Origin: Mesomycoplasma ovipneumoniae
GTDB lineage: Bacteria; Bacillota_I; Bacilli_A; Mycoplasmatales; Metamycoplasmataceae
Direction: 5' to 3'
NCBI GenBank assembly: GCA_009756935.1
Contig: VZDP01000003.1
Location: 38,541 to 102,540 of the forward strand
Length of the DNA: 64,000 bases
Positions 869-39,092 of this stretch are shown one piece after another. Below the pieces are notes generated by a model. The model was not told where the DNA came from, did not search any database, and was given only the letters and a program-made list of their open reading frames with translations. The position numbers and the translations under genes are program-made. The first letter of the stretch is position 1, and each line of letters starts with the position of its first letter.

Positions 869-2861
869 TTACATATCTTTTTGAATGAGAGATCTCGATA
901 AACATTGCATTTTTTTGGTAATTTGAGATTACTTTCTTTAAAAATTCAAAATTTTTTTCATCGATGTTTTCAAAAGCTTCATCTAATAAAATTAAGTCAA
1001 AATCTTTGGTTAAAAGTTGCAAAATTGCGATTATTTGCTTTTGACCGCTAGAAAAATTTGAGCCATTGTTAACAAATTTTGAGTCAAGGGAAATTTGCCA
1101 TTCATAAAGCATTTCCTGAATGTCAAATCGTTGAAAATTATTAATTAAATTCTGAATTTTTTCAGGATTTTCATTTGTTATAAAAGAAAGAACGCTAATA
1201 TTAGGGAAATAATTTTGCGATTTTATGTAGCAAATTCGCTTACGCAACTCGTTTTGGTCATAATATTTTAAATCAAGATTATTAATTAAAAAATCACCGT
1301 TATAAACAATTTCCTGATTTAAAAGTCGTAAAAATGTAGACTTTCCGCTTCCATTTTTTCCAATTATGTGCAAATTTTCTTTTATTTGCATTTTTTCAAT
1401 ATAAAAAAGTGTCTTATTTTTATAATAACTCACGCTTAAATCTTTTAATTTTATGTCCGAAATTTTTTGGTGATATTTACCGGTTGTTTCTTTTTCAATA
1501 TTGAGCACAAAATTTAAAAGCTCAAATTCCTTTAAAAAAATCGGCAAATTAGTGACTATATTAACAAATGAAGAAAGCGGATTAATAAAAAAGCTAAAAA
1601 AACTTAAAAAAAGTAGTAATTCGCCAATGGATAATTTATTATCAAAAATTCAAAAAGAGGAAATAACCACAATTAAAATCGGCGCTATTGAAAAAAGAAA
1701 ATTATTAAAACTTGATAAATAACTCTCTTTTTTCCAAATATTGAATTCTGTCTTTTTATAACGGTAATATTTTTCATCAAATTGATGCTTTAAATTTTTA
1801 TAAACATCATCACGCTTTAAATTTTCAAGGGAAAAAATCATGTCATTTGTGCTTGTCAAACTATTTAGTTGATCTTCCATTAAAAATTGGTGATTTTTGG
1901 AGATACTTTTTCGCACAATTATGCTAATAAAAAGGTAAATTATGCCTATTCCAATAATTAAGCCCAAAATTTTAATGTCTATCCACAACAATATAAAAAA
2001 TGAAATTAAAAAAGTAATAACTTCGTTGAAAATATGATAATAAAAACTGGCAGAAAAAGCTGCAAAACTTGGAATTAAATTAATCCTTCTAATGTAATCA
2101 TGATTGTCTAATTTTAAAAGTTGAAAATTTTTACCTGTTTTTAGAGCGTTAAAAAAACGATCAAAAATATCTTTTTCGATTTTTAGTTCAATTTTATGAA
2201 TATATATTTTTTTAATAATGTCCTGTAAAATTCGCCAAATTACAATCCAAGCAAAGAAAAGACTCACTTTTATGACAAGACCTAAATCTTGTTGGGGCAA
2301 AACCTTGTCAATTATTGTTTTCATGAATAATGAAGATAAAAAATTACTAACTGCAGTTATAAAAAATAAAAAAATAAGATATCAGTTACTTTTTGACTCA
2401 AGGAAAAACCACCAATTATTCCATGACTTATCTTTTATTTTTGATCTTTTATATTCAGGATCTTTTTGGGCAAAAATTACAACATTTTGGAAAATTTTTG
2501 CCATTGTTTCAGCTTTGATTTTTACTTTTCCTTTTAAGGGATCGATAATTTCAAATTTTGATTTTTTTACTTTTGTCAATAAAACATAATGATTTAAATC
2601 CCCAGTTTTAATTAGAATAATCGTTGGTTTTACGATGTCTAAGGTTTTTAAATTCTCATAAGGACCACCGTAAGATTCAAGAATAATTCCAAATTCCTTT
2701 GCCAATCGCTCTAAATTAGCGATGTTTATCCCGTCATTTGAATAAAAAGCTTTTGTTTTTAAAGAGTTTATTGATATTTTTTTATCATAAAAGAAATGAT
2801 AAATTGATTGAAGAACCGCCAATCCACAATCTTTTAAATCCTTTTGCAAAAATACTTTCAT
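822..2861 (-). CDS. C39-peptidase ABC exporter (bacteriocin/peptide processing and export, PCAT type)
   Basis: One 679-residue protein with UGA read as Trp. Residues 1-130 are a C39 papain-like peptidase: oxyanion Q6, catalytic C12 in DLKDCGLAVL, H91 in LNHYVLL and D107 in IIDPLKG. A multi-span ABC membrane domain follows (~160-420). The nucleotide-binding domain has Walker A GKNGSGKST, Q-loop region KSQNYF, signature FSSGQ (variant of LSGGQ), Walker B LILLDEAF and H-loop ISHSK. This order is that of peptidase-containing ABC transporters, which cut a leader after Gly-Gly and export the mature peptide in one step. No peptide gene is adjacent; a double-glycine candidate lies at 28661-28936. The accessory gene 467-868 overlaps its 3' end. 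Confidence 0.9.
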
Positions 2862-27793: not shown

Positions 27794-28585
27794 TTAGCAA
27801 ATTTTTAATGTTTTTTTCAAAAAATCAGGCCCTGAACCTTCAAAATGAAGATTTTTATCTATTTTTGACTTGTTAATAAAAATTTCAAGCTCTTTTTCAG
27901 TTTGAAAATGAGGCGAAATTAAGTTTATAGTCTCTAAATTTTCTCAATTGAATGATAAGAAAATTTGGCTAACTTCAAAATTCTCAACAATAATTTTGAA
28001 GTTATTTTCAAATTGGTCAAAATTTTTAAAAAAATCAAATTTGACTTTATAGAAATTCAACAACTTACTTTCATTTTTAAAAGAAAACTCACCAAAAATA
28101 TCAATTTTTTTTGGTGAGTTTCCAACAAAAGAGTAAATATCAACATTAATTTTGTTTGAATTAAATTTAATGGTTTGGATTGCATTGTCAGCAAATGAAT
28201 CAGACTTAATTTGGCTAACTCATTCAGGAATTACGAGGTTTTCAATTTGATTACTTGCAAAAACTGAGCTATTTAATACAGTTACTTTTTCAGGAATTTT
28301 AATATTTTTTATTAAATTAGATTCAAAAGCTGAGTCTAAAATAATTTCAACATTTGAGCCAAAAACTACTTCGTCAATTTTATTTAACATGAAAGCAGAC
28401 TCGCCGATTTTTAAAAGTGAATTTGGCAAAATTAGTTTTTTTATTTCTAAATTCATTCCTGAAAAAGCAAAATCACCAATTTCTTGAAAATTAAAGGATG
28501 ATAAATCCAGAATTTTTCCTTGCAAAAATTCTGGATTTTTAATTATTTTTGATGCTTCATCGCGGGATAATGTGAAAACTTGCAC
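27794..28585 (-). CDS. BspA-type leucine-rich-repeat protein
   Basis: 263 residues starting at a GTG (28585) after TTTAGGAAAAAA. It carries LRR_5/BspA-like repeats of ~23 residues: FQEIGDFAFSGMNLEIKKLILPNSLLKIGESAFMLNKIDEVVFGS, LDSAFESNLIKNIKIPEKV, NSSVFASNQIENLVIPEWV, SDSFADNAIQTIKF. No signal peptide or membrane helix is visible, so it may be intracellular. The C-terminal ~90 residues are non-repetitive. It is divergent from the double-glycine peptide at 28661. Such repeats usually mediate protein binding; its partner is unknown. Confidence 0.75.
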
Positions 28586-28660
28586 TTTTTTCCTAAATTT
28601 TTCCTTTTTTAGATGTTTTTTAGCCTTTTGACTAACTTTGGGTGAAAGGAGATACAAATA

Positions 28661-28936
28661 ATGAAAAAACAACCAAACCAAAATTTCGTTAAATTAAGCG
28701 AAAAAGATAAATATGAAACGGGCGGAGCTGGCGCTTTTGCTGTTATTTCAAATGTGGCAACCGCAGTTGGAAAAATTGCACCTGCTTTATTGGGAGTTGC
28801 CGCTGTTTATCGAACTTTTACAACAGGATCTGGTGAAATTAAAGGTCAAGATCATACTGTAAAATGAGATGACTCAAAACTTGCTAAAGCAGAAGCAGAA
28901 AAAGCACTAAAACAGCCAATTTATTTTATTTATTAA
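28661..28936 (+). CDS. Small peptide with double-glycine leader (candidate exported bacteriocin-like peptide)
   Basis: A 91-residue ORF with an excellent ribosome site (AAAGGAGAT) before ATG 28661. The first ~22 residues end LSEKDKYETGG, which fits the leader consensus of C39-processed peptides (hydrophobic-Ser...Gly-Gly). After Gly-Gly comes a Gly/Ala-rich hydrophobic stretch (AGAFAVISNVATAVGKIAPA continuing to LLGVAAVY) and then a charged tail ending PIYFIY; one TGA is Trp in VKWDD. The predicted mature form is ~69-70 residues. A C39 exporter is encoded at 822-2861. I infer it as a substrate; no bacteriocin homologue is recognised and no immunity gene is obvious. Confidence 0.6.
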
Positions 28937-30902: not shown

Positions 30903-31202
30903 ATGTTTGCAATTATTAAAACCGGTGGTAAACAGCTTTTAGTTGAAAAGGATCAAACAATTTTTATTGAAAAAATTGATAAAAACGAAGGTGAAAACGT
31001 AATTTTCACAGATGTTCTTTTTATTAATGGAAAAATTGGAACTCCTTTTGTTGAAAATGCAACTGTTGTTGGCGTTGTCGAAAAACAAGGCCGTGGTAAA
31101 AAAATTGTCGTTTACCGTCACAATCCAAAATCAACTCACAAACGTAAATTAGGGCACAGACAACCCTTTACTCGCGTAAAAATAACAGAATTGAAGGGAT
31201 AA
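30903..31202 (+). CDS. rplU: 50S ribosomal protein L21
   Basis: 99 residues: [20 protein letters not shown] and the C-terminal [23 protein letters not shown] are diagnostic. It binds 23S rRNA and is co-transcribed with rpmA 8 bp downstream. The usual intervening Prp protease gene of Firmicutes is absent. Confidence 0.97.
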
Positions 31203-31209
31203 TTTAGAA

Positions 31210-31464
31210 ATGGCAAAGACCAAAGCTGGTGGTTCTACCAAGAATGGCCGTGATTCGATAGGTCGTAGACTCGGTCAAAAAATCGCTGATGGACAATTTG
31301 CGCTAACTGGTTCAATAATTTACCGTCAAAGGGGAACTAAAATTTACCCTGGATTAAATGTTGGAATTGGTGGCGATGATACTTTATTTGCACTTGCTGA
31401 TGGAATTGTAAAATTTCATAAAACTAGAAAGCGCAAATATGCAACAGTTATTGTTAGCGATTAA
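31210..31464 (+). CDS. rpmA: 50S ribosomal protein L27
   Basis: 84 residues: [29 protein letters not shown]. The N-terminus begins directly with the mature sequence and lacks the cleavable extension of most Firmicutes L27. This agrees with the absence of a prp gene beside it. Followed by a terminator. Confidence 0.97.
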
Positions 31465-31891: not shown

Positions 31892-33103
31892 CTAAATATT
31901 CCCAGAATTTCTTAAATAGAGATTATCTAAAATATCATCAGTAATTTTTTCTTTTGGAAGATCGGTAATTTGATTAGATATATGCTCGCATGTTTGTGGT
32001 GAGTTGCAACACTTAACCACCAATTTTCCATTTTTGGAATCTCATGTAAATTTATTTCTATCAAACTGAGTATGTGAGTTTTTATCTAAAGCTATTAAAT
32101 TATGAGCTTCTGTGATTTTTTTAACAAAGCGTTGCACTTGATCACTGGTAAGATTATAGCTTTCCCTATTTACTAGTTTTACTATTTTTTCTTTAATTCT
32201 TTCAACTGGGAAAATATGTGCCCTGTCTAAATAAATTTGTTTATCCAAATCAAGAATATTAATAGAATCTATCTTAATTTTTTGAATTTTTGTTCTTTCT
32301 TTTTCTACTAAAGAATTAATTTGATCTAATGATAAATACTTTTTAATTTCTGCTAAAACTTTCTTACCACTTTCAATACTGTGTTTATTGCTAATGAGTT
32401 TTTCTAATGATTGATAAACTTTGTAAAGTTTTGAATTTTTAGGAGCATCTTTAAATCTATCAAAATAATTTTTATCATCTAATAAATCATCATCCTTATA
32501 AATACCATCATATTCATCATATTCATCATATTCATCATTATTATTTTTAAAATCAGAATAATATGTGAAAAAGAGTGCAAAATAACTGATATTTTTATCA
32601 AAATTTTTCTCATCATCTAAAATAATAGGAGCATTTTTAGGTATAAATAATTCTCCGCCTGGGTTGGAACCATAGATAAATTTATATAAATTTTTAATTG
32701 TGGTTAAAAAATTTGGTTCTCGTAATAGTTTATTTAAGTGTACAATTTCATCATTATTTAATATTTGTAAATCATCTTGATTATAAATTTTAGATCTAGG
32801 TGGTCTATCTTTTTGAACAACTTTTTGCTCAAGACTATTAAAAAACTCTTCCCTTTTTTTATAATAGCAACAACTTGTTTTATTAATTTGCTTTTGTTCA
32901 TGGTCTTCATGTTTTTCTCTATGACTTTGAGTTACTAATTTAGACATGACACAACTATTAATTTGAATATAAAAATGATGAATTACTAAACTTTCAATAT
33001 CATAAACAAAAAATATTTCCCCTTTAAATTGTGGTTTATCTTTGTTTTCTGAAAAGTGTTTGCTTTGAATTTTTAATTTACTTCATCTCAAAGTTGCACT
33101 CAT
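31892..33103 (-). CDS. HNH restriction endonuclease (type II), partner of the cytosine methyltransferase
   Basis: A 403-residue protein. The HNH-type nuclease site is read as DRAHIFPVERI ... AHNLIALDKNSHTQFD (H...N...H). A CC-x5-C pair (KCCNSPQTCEH) follows and could bind zinc. A highly acidic tract of repeated DEY units (NNNDEYDEYDEYDG) comes from a 9-bp tandem repeat at 32507-32540. It starts 3 bp after the methyltransferase stop, so its translation probably depends on ribosomes finishing that gene. Specificity cannot be read from sequence. Confidence 0.8.
32507..32540 (-). repeat. 9-bp tandem repeat in the endonuclease gene
   Basis: CATCATATT repeats about 3.5 times. The unit is a multiple of three, so copy-number change alters the acidic DEY stretch without frameshift. 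Confidence 0.8.
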
Positions 33104-33106
33104 CTA

Positions 33107-34317
33107 TTACTCCTTTTCTAAAAGCAAAACAATTTTTTCAAATAGTGCTTTTAGAACTTCGATAGATATTGAATTACCAGCTAAAAATATTATAGATTTT
33201 GGTGGAACTAAATTTGTTTTATAAATTTTATGAGCATCACATTCTGTAAAACCCATATATTTAAAGGACTCGTAAAAATTTATTTCTCTTATGTAGTTTT
33301 CTTGAATCCAAAATTTAAGTCTAGAGTTAGCCCCTGATGCTGTAAGTGTTGGTCCGAAAAAGTCAGGATAATAAATATAGTTTTCAGAATTAAATTTAGT
33401 AAAATTAATAATTTCCCTTTTCTTAATTCTTGAGTTTGTTATTCTAGGGGTTGTTAGTTGATATTTAAAAATTTTGCTAGCTAGATTTTCTTCATTTGGT
33501 AGATGAGTAAAATCTAAAATCTTCTTTAAATTATTGTTATGTTTTATTGGGGTTGGTCATTCAAATTTTTTATTAGTCAACCAAGAAACCATGAAAACTC
33601 TTTGTCTATTTTGAGATGAACCAAAATCAGTAGAGTTTAAAATTTTTCATTTACTTTGGTAGCCTAAAGTTTTTAAAAAATTAATTCAATTATTAAATTC
33701 AGCACGAAATTTTTGACTAGCTAAATTTTTTACATTTTCCATCAACAAAACTTTAGGTAAATTATCTAAATTATTTTCTAAAATTCTTTTAATTTGCCAA
33801 AGTAGCCCGCTTCTTGTTGAAGGATTAAGACCTTTTTGCAATCCTTGTGTCGATAAGTCTTGGCAAGGAAAAGAATAAGTAAAAATATCTATATTTTTAG
33901 GTATTTGATTAACTTGATGAATATCTGAATATCAAGGATAATAATTATTTTTGCTGTTCTTAGAGATGAGAGAGAGAGAGAGAGAGACGGATTATTGAGC
34001 ATTTTTAAAAAATAAGGATAAATTTTACGCAATTTATCTTCCTTCATTTTTTGAAAATAATTTTTAGACACTAAATTTTTGCTATCTATTGAAAGGCTTA
34101 ATGAAGAAAGTTGATCAATAATTACTTCTATTGGCGTTTTTGTATCTGCTGGTAAGACTTCATAATTAATAATTTGATAAGAAATAATAGCGTGAATATA
34201 TCACTCAATAATTCCTAATGATTCAACTTCAAAATTTAGAGTTTTTCCTACCAATTTCAGTGCACGCAATTGCGATCCTAGACCAGCAAAAGCTTCAAAA
34301 ATAGTTATTTTTTTCAT
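33107..34317 (-). pseudogene. C5-cytosine DNA methyltransferase, frameshifted at a (GA)10 tract (phase OFF)
   Basis: From ATG 34317 the frame has motif I (FEAFAGLGSQLRAL). It runs into a Ser-Leu stretch encoded by ten TC units (33968-33987 on the plus strand) and then stops at 33889. One frame over, the rest is intact: motif IV with catalytic Cys (SFPCQDLS), motif VI (LLMENVKN), motif VIII (QNRQRVF) and motif X (GNSISIEVL), ending at 33107. The total is 1211 bp, two more than a multiple of three, so nine repeats would restore a 402-residue enzyme. It is therefore better read as a phase-variable gene in the OFF state than as a decayed one. Confidence 0.88.
33968..33987. repeat. (GA)10 dinucleotide tract, slippage switch of the methyltransferase
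   Basis: Ten perfect GA units (TC on the coding strand) between GAT and CGG, located before the catalytic motif. This is the exact point where the reading frame is lost. Confidence 0.95.
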
Positions 34318-37730: not shown

Positions 37731-39092
37731 TCTTGTGTTTTAAATTTTTATGGATTTTTCAAATAGAAATGTAATCTAATTTAATTTTACATTATTTAAC
37801 CGGTTAGGGAAAATAATTTCTAATTGTTTTTTAATCATGAATCAATTTCTTACCTTTTGTCATTTTGTAGATGCGTTTTGGAGAGTTAAATAAGTTATTT
37901 TTGAAAGGTAATTTACACTTTGAATTCCGCCTTTTGTTTTTGTATTTTTCCTAATTATTCTATTCATTGACTCAATTAAATTTGTGGTATAAATTACTTG
38001 CCTCAATTCATATGGATATTTAAAAAATGTCGTTAGTTCAACGAAATTTGTATACCAAGACTTGATAATTGAAGGATATTTTTGGCCTCATTTTTCCGCA
38101 AATTTATCAAGATTTTGCATTGCAAATTCTTGATTAGCCGCTTGATAAATCTTTTTCATATCAAGGACAAACTCTTTTTTGTCTTTGTTAGAAACTTTTA
38201 AAAGCGAGTTTCTAATTTGGTGAACAACACATTTTTGAACATCTGTTTGCGGGAAAACCGCTTCAATTGCTTGAGTAATTCCACTTAGATTATCGCAAGA
38301 AATTATTAGAACATCTTCCAGCCCGCGAGTTTTTAGTTCGCTAAAAACATCAAGTCAATTACTTGCTGATTCGGTATTTTTAATCCAAAATCCCAGTGCT
38401 TTTTTATTTCCGTCCCAATCAATTGCAAGAATAAGATAAAGTGATTTTTTGACAAAAACACCGTTTTCTTTAACATTAAAAAACATCCCATCAATGTACA
38501 AAATTGGATAGGAATTCTCAATTTTTCGCGATTTTCACTTTTCAATTTCAGGCAATAATTTGTCAGTAACTGAAGAAATTCAGGCATTACTTATTTCTTT
38601 TTTATAGATACTTTTTATTGTGTTAACAATATTTTCATATGACATTCCTGATGCAAAAAGTGAAAACACTTGCTCTTCGATATCGCCTAAATTTGTTTCG
38701 TATTTACCGAGTAATTTGTTCTCAAAAGTGCCATTTCGATCTCTTGGTATTTTTAGATGAAAATTATTACTATTAAAATTCACAGTTTTACCCGAAAATC
38801 CGTTTCGCTTATTTGGCCTATGCACGCCTTTTTTGCTTCGGTTACTTTTTTCATAGCCTAAATGTTGGCTTAATTCCGCCCTTAAGAGCGCCTCAGTAAA
38901 AGTTTTAAACATATGCGAAATTTCGTTGTGAAAATCTTCTTTTTTTATTTTTTTATAATCAGCGTATTTGTCAACAAGTTTTTTAGCTTCTAACTCAAAT
39001 GGGGATAATGTTTTTTGCTGTTTTTTCATATTTTGGTCCTTCATAATAAATTTTATCAAAATAAATTTACTTTAAAAACACAAAATATTTAA
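37731..39092 (-). mobile_element. IS256-family insertion sequence
   Basis: The boundaries are estimated from the inverted motif TTGTGTTTTAAA at both ends (around 37732 and 39088). The element carries one intact mutator-type transposase. Genes on both sides are truncated and do not belong together, which indicates a deletion at the insertion. Confidence 0.75.
37776..39044 (-). CDS. IS256-family (mutator type) transposase
   Basis: A 422-residue protein starting at ATG 39044 (MKDQNMKKQQKTL). DDE residues: Asp in PILYIDGMFFNV, Asp in LIISCDNLSGI and Glu in YTTNLIESMNRIIRKNTKTKGG. The C-HQIRNSLLKVS block is also conserved. Trp codons are mostly TGA. It appears intact. Confidence 0.95.

Follow-up and report, generated by a model that had tools for sequence, protein, structure and literature searches.

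The peptide gene and the exporter gene

The window analysed here is a stretch of 64,000 nucleotides (nt) of Mesomycoplasma ovipneumoniae DNA (contig VZDP01000003.1, positions 38,541 to 102,540 of the forward strand), and it encodes, about 26 kb apart, a short peptide precursor and an ATP-binding cassette (ABC) exporter with a C39 peptidase domain (Table 1). The initial annotation described the former as a 91-residue open reading frame (ORF) with a strong ribosome site, which is borne out by the ATG at 28661 with AAAGGAG at 9 nt and by the presence of homologous ORFs of 83-94 amino acids (aa) in 15 of the 15 genomes of the genus. The frame is closed by a stop codon at 28934-28936 and contains one TGA; with TGA decoded as Trp, the precursor is MKKQPNQNFVKLSEKDKYETGGAGAFAVISNVATAVGKIAPALLGVAAVYRTFTTGSGEIKGQDHTVKWDDSKLAKAEAEKALKQPIYFIY. 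In comparisons with seven near relatives, the proportion of synonymous differences (pS) was 0.13-0.22 against 0.014-0.038 for nonsynonymous differences (pN), a contrast which indicates a real, conserved protein. Positions 28661-28936 are a real conserved gene, beyond chance. A promoter scan gave a result close to chance (four sites against 2.6 in shuffles), and two terminator-like sites were found, one upstream (28503-28538) and another within the gene.

The glycines at residues 21 and 22 of the precursor precede A23-G24 and a hydrophobic stretch. Throughout the family, the leader is followed by such a hydrophobic stretch, the GEIK...KWD segment and a polar linker. Many members have an aromatic end, conserved as PIYFIY in four full-length sequences. 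The positions G58, K61, K68 and W69 are well conserved, each being kept in at least 90% of the 97 aligned rows. The AlphaFold2 model of the precursor (m4a1ef88188b7; mean predicted local distance difference test 74.1, predicted template modelling score 0.37) has a helix at residues 23-54, strands at 57-61 and 66-70, and a second helix at 72-83. In the library search, the window peptide matched no Pfam and no NCBIfam family.

The complete C39 peptidase-ABC exporter that had been annotated at 822-2861 is likewise upheld. The protein carries the Peptidase_C39, ABC membrane and ABC ATPase domains and exceeds the cut-off of NF045998 ('Mbov_0121 family peptidase domain-containing ABC transporter') with 740.3 against 500 bits over residues 6-673. 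By sequence, the PDB entries closest to it are an 'ABC-type bacteriocin transporter' and ComA, and it shares 99% identity over 520 columns with the exporter of genome G012 (genomes are cited by working numbers). The residues that we take to be catalytic in the C39 family, Q6, C12, H91 and D107, each occur in 87 of the 91 exporters aligned. Those that deviate are the broken or split proteins of G100, G058, G034 and G045 and, at C12, the full-length protein of G077 with Phe. Exporters over the NF045998 cut-off were found in 122 of the 135 genomes of the taxonomic family of the window.

Table 1. Coordinates of the peptide gene, the exporter gene and associated features within the window
Feature	Position	Strand	Basis
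Peptide precursor gene, 91 aa	28661..28936	+	Sequence, homologues, purifying selection
Shine-Dalgarno AAAGGAG	28645..28651	+	9 nt spacing to ATG; sequence
Predicted double-glycine-type leader, residues 1-23 (ends G22-A23; L12 at -12, T20 at -4)	28661..28729	+	Family register; cleavage site inferred
Predicted mature peptide, residues 24-91, 68 aa	28730..28933	+	Inferred from register
Conserved GEIK...VKWD segment, residues 57-70, predicted beta-hairpin	28829..28870	+	Family alignment and model
rplU (L21, 30903-31202) and rpmA (L27, 31210-31464)	30903..31464	+	Most frequent genes downstream of the peptide gene in relatives
C39 peptidase-ABC exporter, NF045998 (Mbov_0121 family), 679 aa	822..2861	-	Domain and NCBIfam match
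C39 peptidase domain, about residues 1-140 (Q6, C12, H91, D107)	2442..2861	-	Exporter alignment

Distribution of the peptide family

A protein search with the window peptide retrieved four relatives of 95, 75, 73 and 75% identity, two of them named proteins of Mesomycoplasma flocculare and M. hyopneumoniae, both labelled 'hypothetical protein', and the sole match among named genome contigs was in M. ovipneumoniae SC01 (92%). As a single-sequence query, the peptide matched 27 of 58 genomes at E <= 1, including all 15 of the genus. A profile of 23 rows extended the family to 127 of the 135 genomes of the taxonomic family at E <= 2.7e-6, with one such match in each; second matches occurred in six genomes, all at E 0.0038 or worse. 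Divergent copies in G124, G133, G134 (E = 0.24) and G135 were found by eye through the segment KGE[IV]E...[LI]RLKWDS, bringing the total to 131 of 135. The peptide was not found in the remaining four of these genomes (G002, G004, G090 and G125); the matches in G090 (E 0.0038) and G002 (E 0.21) lay within long unrelated ORFs and were discarded.

Relatives extend over the order. A profile of 97 rows had matches at E <= 0.5 in 259 of 320 genomes, many of them weak. For example, in another taxonomic family, here f6, 51 of 60 genomes gave a match to a four-row profile at E <= 0.5, 50 of them at 4.9e-5 or better, and the f6 ORFs that were read have textbook double-glycine leaders such as MQKLKVDELKEIKGGAASGALLNGIGSIIG. 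The alignment of f6 with the window family (hhalign probability 97.8%, E 8.2e-13, 65 columns) extends through the KWDN motif, which points to homology beyond the leader. In a further family, f3, a dedicated profile matched 77 of 95 genomes at E <= 0.1, and its alignment with the window family (95.2%, E 2.6e-8, 36 columns) covers the leader and the start of the core only; many of the f3 matches were weak. Library families were matched weakly by a few of the 97 relatives, namely PF10439 (Bacteriocin_IIc) by five and TIGR01847 by one. The leader features are retained over the order while the cores diverge. The window peptide is a member of an unannotated small-peptide family, which normally has one copy per genome and extends, through its relatives, beyond the taxonomic family to others of the order. 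Tandem pairs of adjacent matches occur in seven f3 genomes (G230, G241, G290, G293, G303, G310 and G291), with a single copy elsewhere, and it is possible that these are two-peptide versions.

Leader register and predicted cleavage site

The leader is about 20 residues long in the 125 ORFs extracted from the 127 profile-matched genomes; those of G025 and G029 were left out of the count, and both read GG by eye. Phe or Leu stands at -15, Leu, Ile, Met or Val at -12 in 123 of 125, and mostly Ile, Thr, Leu or Val at -4. The last two residues of the leader (P2-P1) are GG in 66 ORFs, GA in 21, PG in 20, VG in six, AG in five, AA in two, GS in two, and SA, TG and PS in one each. The register was chosen by a score favouring such leader residues, and the P2-P1 and -12 counts therefore describe the leader and do not test it. 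A Shine-Dalgarno-like match of at least six bases precedes 108 of the 125, where the choice of start itself favoured such a match.

In the window precursor, the initial annotation placed a Gly-Gly leader with cleavage after G22. The double-glycine type of the leader stands and the site does not, as the register of the family gives G22-A23 and a mature part of 68 aa; we infer cleavage after A23 instead. The earlier register, with G21-G22 at -2/-1, would have Glu at -4, Lys at -12 and a break in the otherwise ungapped register of the family; it was rejected on these inferential grounds. G001, with S21 in place of Gly and G22-A23 retained, fits the G22-A23 register. In this register, the window leader has the features of a double-glycine leader, with a hydrophobic residue at -12 (L12), a tolerated one at -4 (T20) and G22-A23 at the end. 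PMC6363468 describes LahT as recognising its leader through -4, -7 and -12, with Thr at -4 processed (V-4T) and Asp or Lys at -4 unprocessed. T20 at -4 fits these data better than E19 of the earlier register.

Coupling of the peptide to the exporter

The two genes are mostly found together, as the co-occurrence check proposed with the initial annotation shows. In f6, both are present in 49 genomes and both absent from eight, with the peptide alone in G169 and G178 and C39 alone in G174 (Fisher p 1.5e-7 for joint presence and absence, uncorrected for ancestry). Likewise, all ten genomes of family f11 are without C39, and in nine of them no peptide match reached E <= 0.5; that of the tenth had an E of 0.135. 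Of the four genomes of the taxonomic family in which the peptide was not found, G004 has no C39 match, and G002 has a weaker one (1.2e-10) and no NF045998 match over the cut-off.

A further association lies between the cleavage site and the peptidase. Exporter residue 92, which adjoins H91, is Tyr or Phe in 55 of 55 species whose peptide has Gly at P2 and non-aromatic in 29 of the 31 others, the exceptions being G031 and G055 (Fisher 7e-21 when species are counted individually). The count includes G025, as does the tree discussed below, and excludes the broken or split exporters of G100, G058, G034 and G045 as well as G090, in which the peptide was not found. In genus g11, the mean NF045998 score was 710 in 27 GG species against 575 in 30 others, with G085, G100 and G108, which were below the cut-off, excluded.

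The link between leader and exporter, which had been drawn across 26 kb from the matched leader and protease, is thus supported by comparative evidence. Because of the conservation of the family, the joint loss and the change of P2 together with a residue beside the catalytic His, the peptide is likely to be the cargo of the C39 exporter.

A possible signalling role

NF045747 (MPN313) gave weak matches in seven of the 97 family members, with G146 over the cut-off and the window peptide without a match; this cut-off (100 bits) is exceeded in just three of the 95 f3 genomes. The peptide gene of G146 adjoins mraZ (PF02381, 4.8e-44), and, between osmC and the gene of a PEP-utilising enzyme (read as ptsI), the same genome encodes a protein that matches sigma-70 region 4. 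From the gene order we take G146 to be Mycoplasma genitalium, its peptide gene to be MG220 and the sigma-like gene to be MG428. The C39 match of G146 (493130-493516) agrees with the place of MG_390 given in PMC5745988. The product of mg220 has been named RrlA in work summarised in a review (PMC9262362); there, rrlA and rrlB are necessary for the activation of sigma-20, their loss leads to severe recombination defects, and sigma-20 in turn raises their transcription in a feed-forward loop. RrlA (MG220) may be a remote relative of the window peptide.

A search with the MG428-like protein found weak matches in the genus of the window. A sigma-20-like profile, which contained a row from G006, matched 39 of the 135 genomes of the taxonomic family (G060 and G134 being doubtful among them), including all 15 of the genus, none of these with an E above 5.6e-19, and the copy in G006 is over the Pfam cut-offs for sigma-70 region 4. 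Sigma-20 (MG428)-like proteins are thus found beyond the M. genitalium group, in Mesomycoplasma and several other genera (for example, L315:7808-8323 and L323:1429-1968).

From the conserved genes of peptide and exporter, the following course of events can be proposed. The leader helix would dock onto the C39 domain by way of its residues at -12 and -4; cleavage by this domain would follow behind the small P1 residue, and the rest of the precursor would be exported. Once outside, the peptide would address cells of the same population by means of its hydrophobic helix and its GEIK...KWD hairpin, and the signal would feed an alternative-sigma and recombination programme like that reported for RrlA. 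On this explanation, the precursor is probably cut after Gly22-Ala23 by the 822-2861 exporter, and the released 68-residue peptide would serve as a secreted signal, not as a bacteriocin. Among the functions considered, a pheromone-like signal is tentatively preferred over bacteriocin and other secreted roles, as an exported peptide together with an alternative sigma loop resembles a pheromone circuit. More speculatively, and with some doubt, an ancient circuit might run through the order in mollicutes, whose cells are some of the smallest that live freely; the C39 exporter and the double-glycine peptide, joined by a sigma-20-like factor in many lineages, would switch on population-wide recombination and DNA exchange in the manner of ComC/ComA/ComX; RrlA would then be its studied but unrecognised pheromone.

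Contrary evidence and alternative explanations

Several observations weigh against export and signalling. The window leader has K17 at -7, without the expected hydrophobic residue, and this position is variable across the family; for LahT, a change of Leu-7 to an acidic or basic residue abolished processing, according to PMC6363468. The tree shows a single change of residue 92 and three of P2, which leaves one independent pair on supported branches and three on all; independent co-evolution of the two was rejected, as there is essentially one evolutionary switch. The correlation of peptide distances with those of the exporter does not single out C39 (0.39, against 0.42 for the transmembrane domain and 0.36 for the nucleotide-binding domain; given the latter, the partial correlations are 0.21 for C39 and 0.23 for the transmembrane domain). 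The peptide occurs without detected C39 in G169, G178 and G132 (the last a 75% complete assembly), and the reverse holds for G174, G090 and G125. Broken exporters stand beside an intact peptide ORF in G034 (L297), G045 (L299) and perhaps G003, and G077 (L275) has an intact peptide and a full-length exporter with Phe for the catalytic C12; the split exporter frames of G058, G085 and G100 are either real or assembly errors. As for the signal, a sigma-20-like factor was undetected by the profile in 96 of the 135 genomes, including 24 of 24 in genus g6, although 131 of 135 carry the peptide. The link to RrlA consists of those 36 columns of leader and core start, which a shared leader type alone might yield, and RrlA is listed as transmembrane in PMC9262362.

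Some of these observations would suit a small membrane protein that undergoes neither cleavage nor export and resembles a leader at its N-terminus by coincidence. The hydrophobic helix directly after the motif, the clade without Gly at P2 (PG, VG and others) and the few genomes in which the peptide is kept and the exporter is broken, undetected or devoid of its Cys point in this direction, but the leader features kept across the order while the cores diverge, the joint loss in f6 and the change of a C39 residue along with P2 make this very improbable. A peptide that is cut and then retained in the membrane, in a structural or host-directed surface role without signalling, would agree with the long predicted hydrophobic helix, the conserved aromatic C-terminus and the listing of RrlA as transmembrane; the control of sigma-20 reported for RrlA is, however, a regulatory role (PMC9262362), and this explanation is regarded as rather unlikely. 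A fold search of PDB with the peptide model, in which none of the 71 matches at E <= 10 reached E <= 0.001 and the best had E 1.6, carries no weight for or against it.

The initial annotation saw in the gene the architecture of class II bacteriocins and quorum peptides, and it is the quorum peptide that is the better guess. Bacteriocin loci are usually variable and clustered. The peptide gene, in contrast, is near-universal in the taxonomic family and conserved in sequence (the low pN above), and the exporter was within 10 kb in none of the 71 genomes measured, selected from the 135 as having both genes on one contig (distance at least 17 kb in all, median 215 kb). Nor was any immunity-like gene seen among the recurrent neighbour groups that could be named within 1.5-2 kb in 127 relatives and the window, smaller groups not having been examined. 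A class II-like bacteriocin released against competing mycoplasmas or other bacteria would account for the leader, for the Gly/Ala-rich hydrophobic core resembling class IIc (PF10439 being matched weakly by five of the 97 relatives), for the several f6 copies whose core starts like GGAGVSGALLNGI and for the bacteriocin transporters among the best PDB matches of the exporter, yet it is considered unlikely on the distribution and context of the gene. The secreted signal remains the preferred reading.

Genomic neighbourhood

The recurrent neighbours that could be named are housekeeping or surface-protein genes. In the window, the neighbours of the peptide gene are infC, pyk, an LRR_5 protein, an M42 aminopeptidase, ung, rplU, rpmA, a MAG4270-family putative restriction endonuclease and a dcm pair. 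The rplU-rpmA pair, about 2 kb away in the window, lies downstream in 56 of 127 relatives (55 on the same strand) in the scan within 1.5-2 kb. A dprA-like ORF follows the pair in 38 loci, all among those 56; one copy was verified (PF02481, 7.6e-18).

The LRR_5 gene (27794-28588, minus strand) encodes a BspA-type leucine-rich repeat protein and is divergent from the peptide gene; its match to the HupY/LrrG adhesin model is far below the cut-off. A DNA cytosine methyltransferase is present as two ORFs (33107-34317, minus strand), corresponding to the NF045953 N-terminal subunit and a dcm part, and the MAG4270-family putative restriction endonuclease (31892-33103) adjoins them. An IS256-family transposase is encoded at 37776-39059 on the minus strand.

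Relation to known systems

The remark in the initial annotation that mycoplasmas are not known for such systems does not hold for the exporter, which is covered by NF045998 and discussed in a 2019 minimal-cell paper (PMC6609329); that the peptide side was missing is correct. In that paper, gene 0401 of JCVI-syn3A is described as a C39 transporter, and by this description it is likened to the NF045998 exporter of the window. No double-glycine peptide candidate was found there for JCVI-syn3A, the same is said of the C39 proteins of other mycoplasmas, citing Dirix 2004, and 0401 was given a tentative role with a lipoyl-peptide because no double-glycine substrate was known. In contrast to that view, a double-glycine substrate family is proposed here, and the peptide family is a candidate substrate for an exporter so far without known cargo. 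It would be the missing substrate of an exporter that most mycoplasmas of the taxonomic family retain. Motif scans may have missed the family on account of its exporter-unlinked genes, the frequent TGA-coded Trp and the loss of Gly at P2 in one clade. No paper on a mycoplasma double-glycine peptide or pheromone was found by title or opening abstract in a literature search that left subscription papers mostly uncovered. If the peptide is a signal, the trigger of sigma-20 and of DNA exchange in mycoplasmas becomes a directly testable question.

Class IIc bacteriocins (PF10439) share with the window peptide the type of leader, the Gly/Ala-rich hydrophobic core and the class of exporter, but the mycoplasma gene is near-universal and not accessory, is unlinked, has no immunity-like neighbour among those seen and has had its P2 Gly replaced in one clade. 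In G146, where a C39 match is present, the MPN313 family (NF045747) with RrlA (MG220) likewise offers a short precursor of the double-glycine type; the window peptide differs from it in the core and the C-terminus, the alignment being limited to the leader and the start of the core. In the proposed function there is a likeness to the Streptococcus system of ComC, the precursor of the competence-stimulating peptide (CSP), with ComA and ComX. Here as there, a double-glycine-type leader goes with a C39-ABC exporter, ComA being among the best PDB matches of the window exporter, a putative alternative sigma factor is present in the genus, and a dprA-like recombination gene lies near the peptide in the 38 loci. 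Unlike in that system, the peptide and exporter genes of mycoplasmas are unlinked, and while CSP is a short peptide, the predicted mature part in mycoplasmas has about 60-70 aa with a predicted helix and hairpin.
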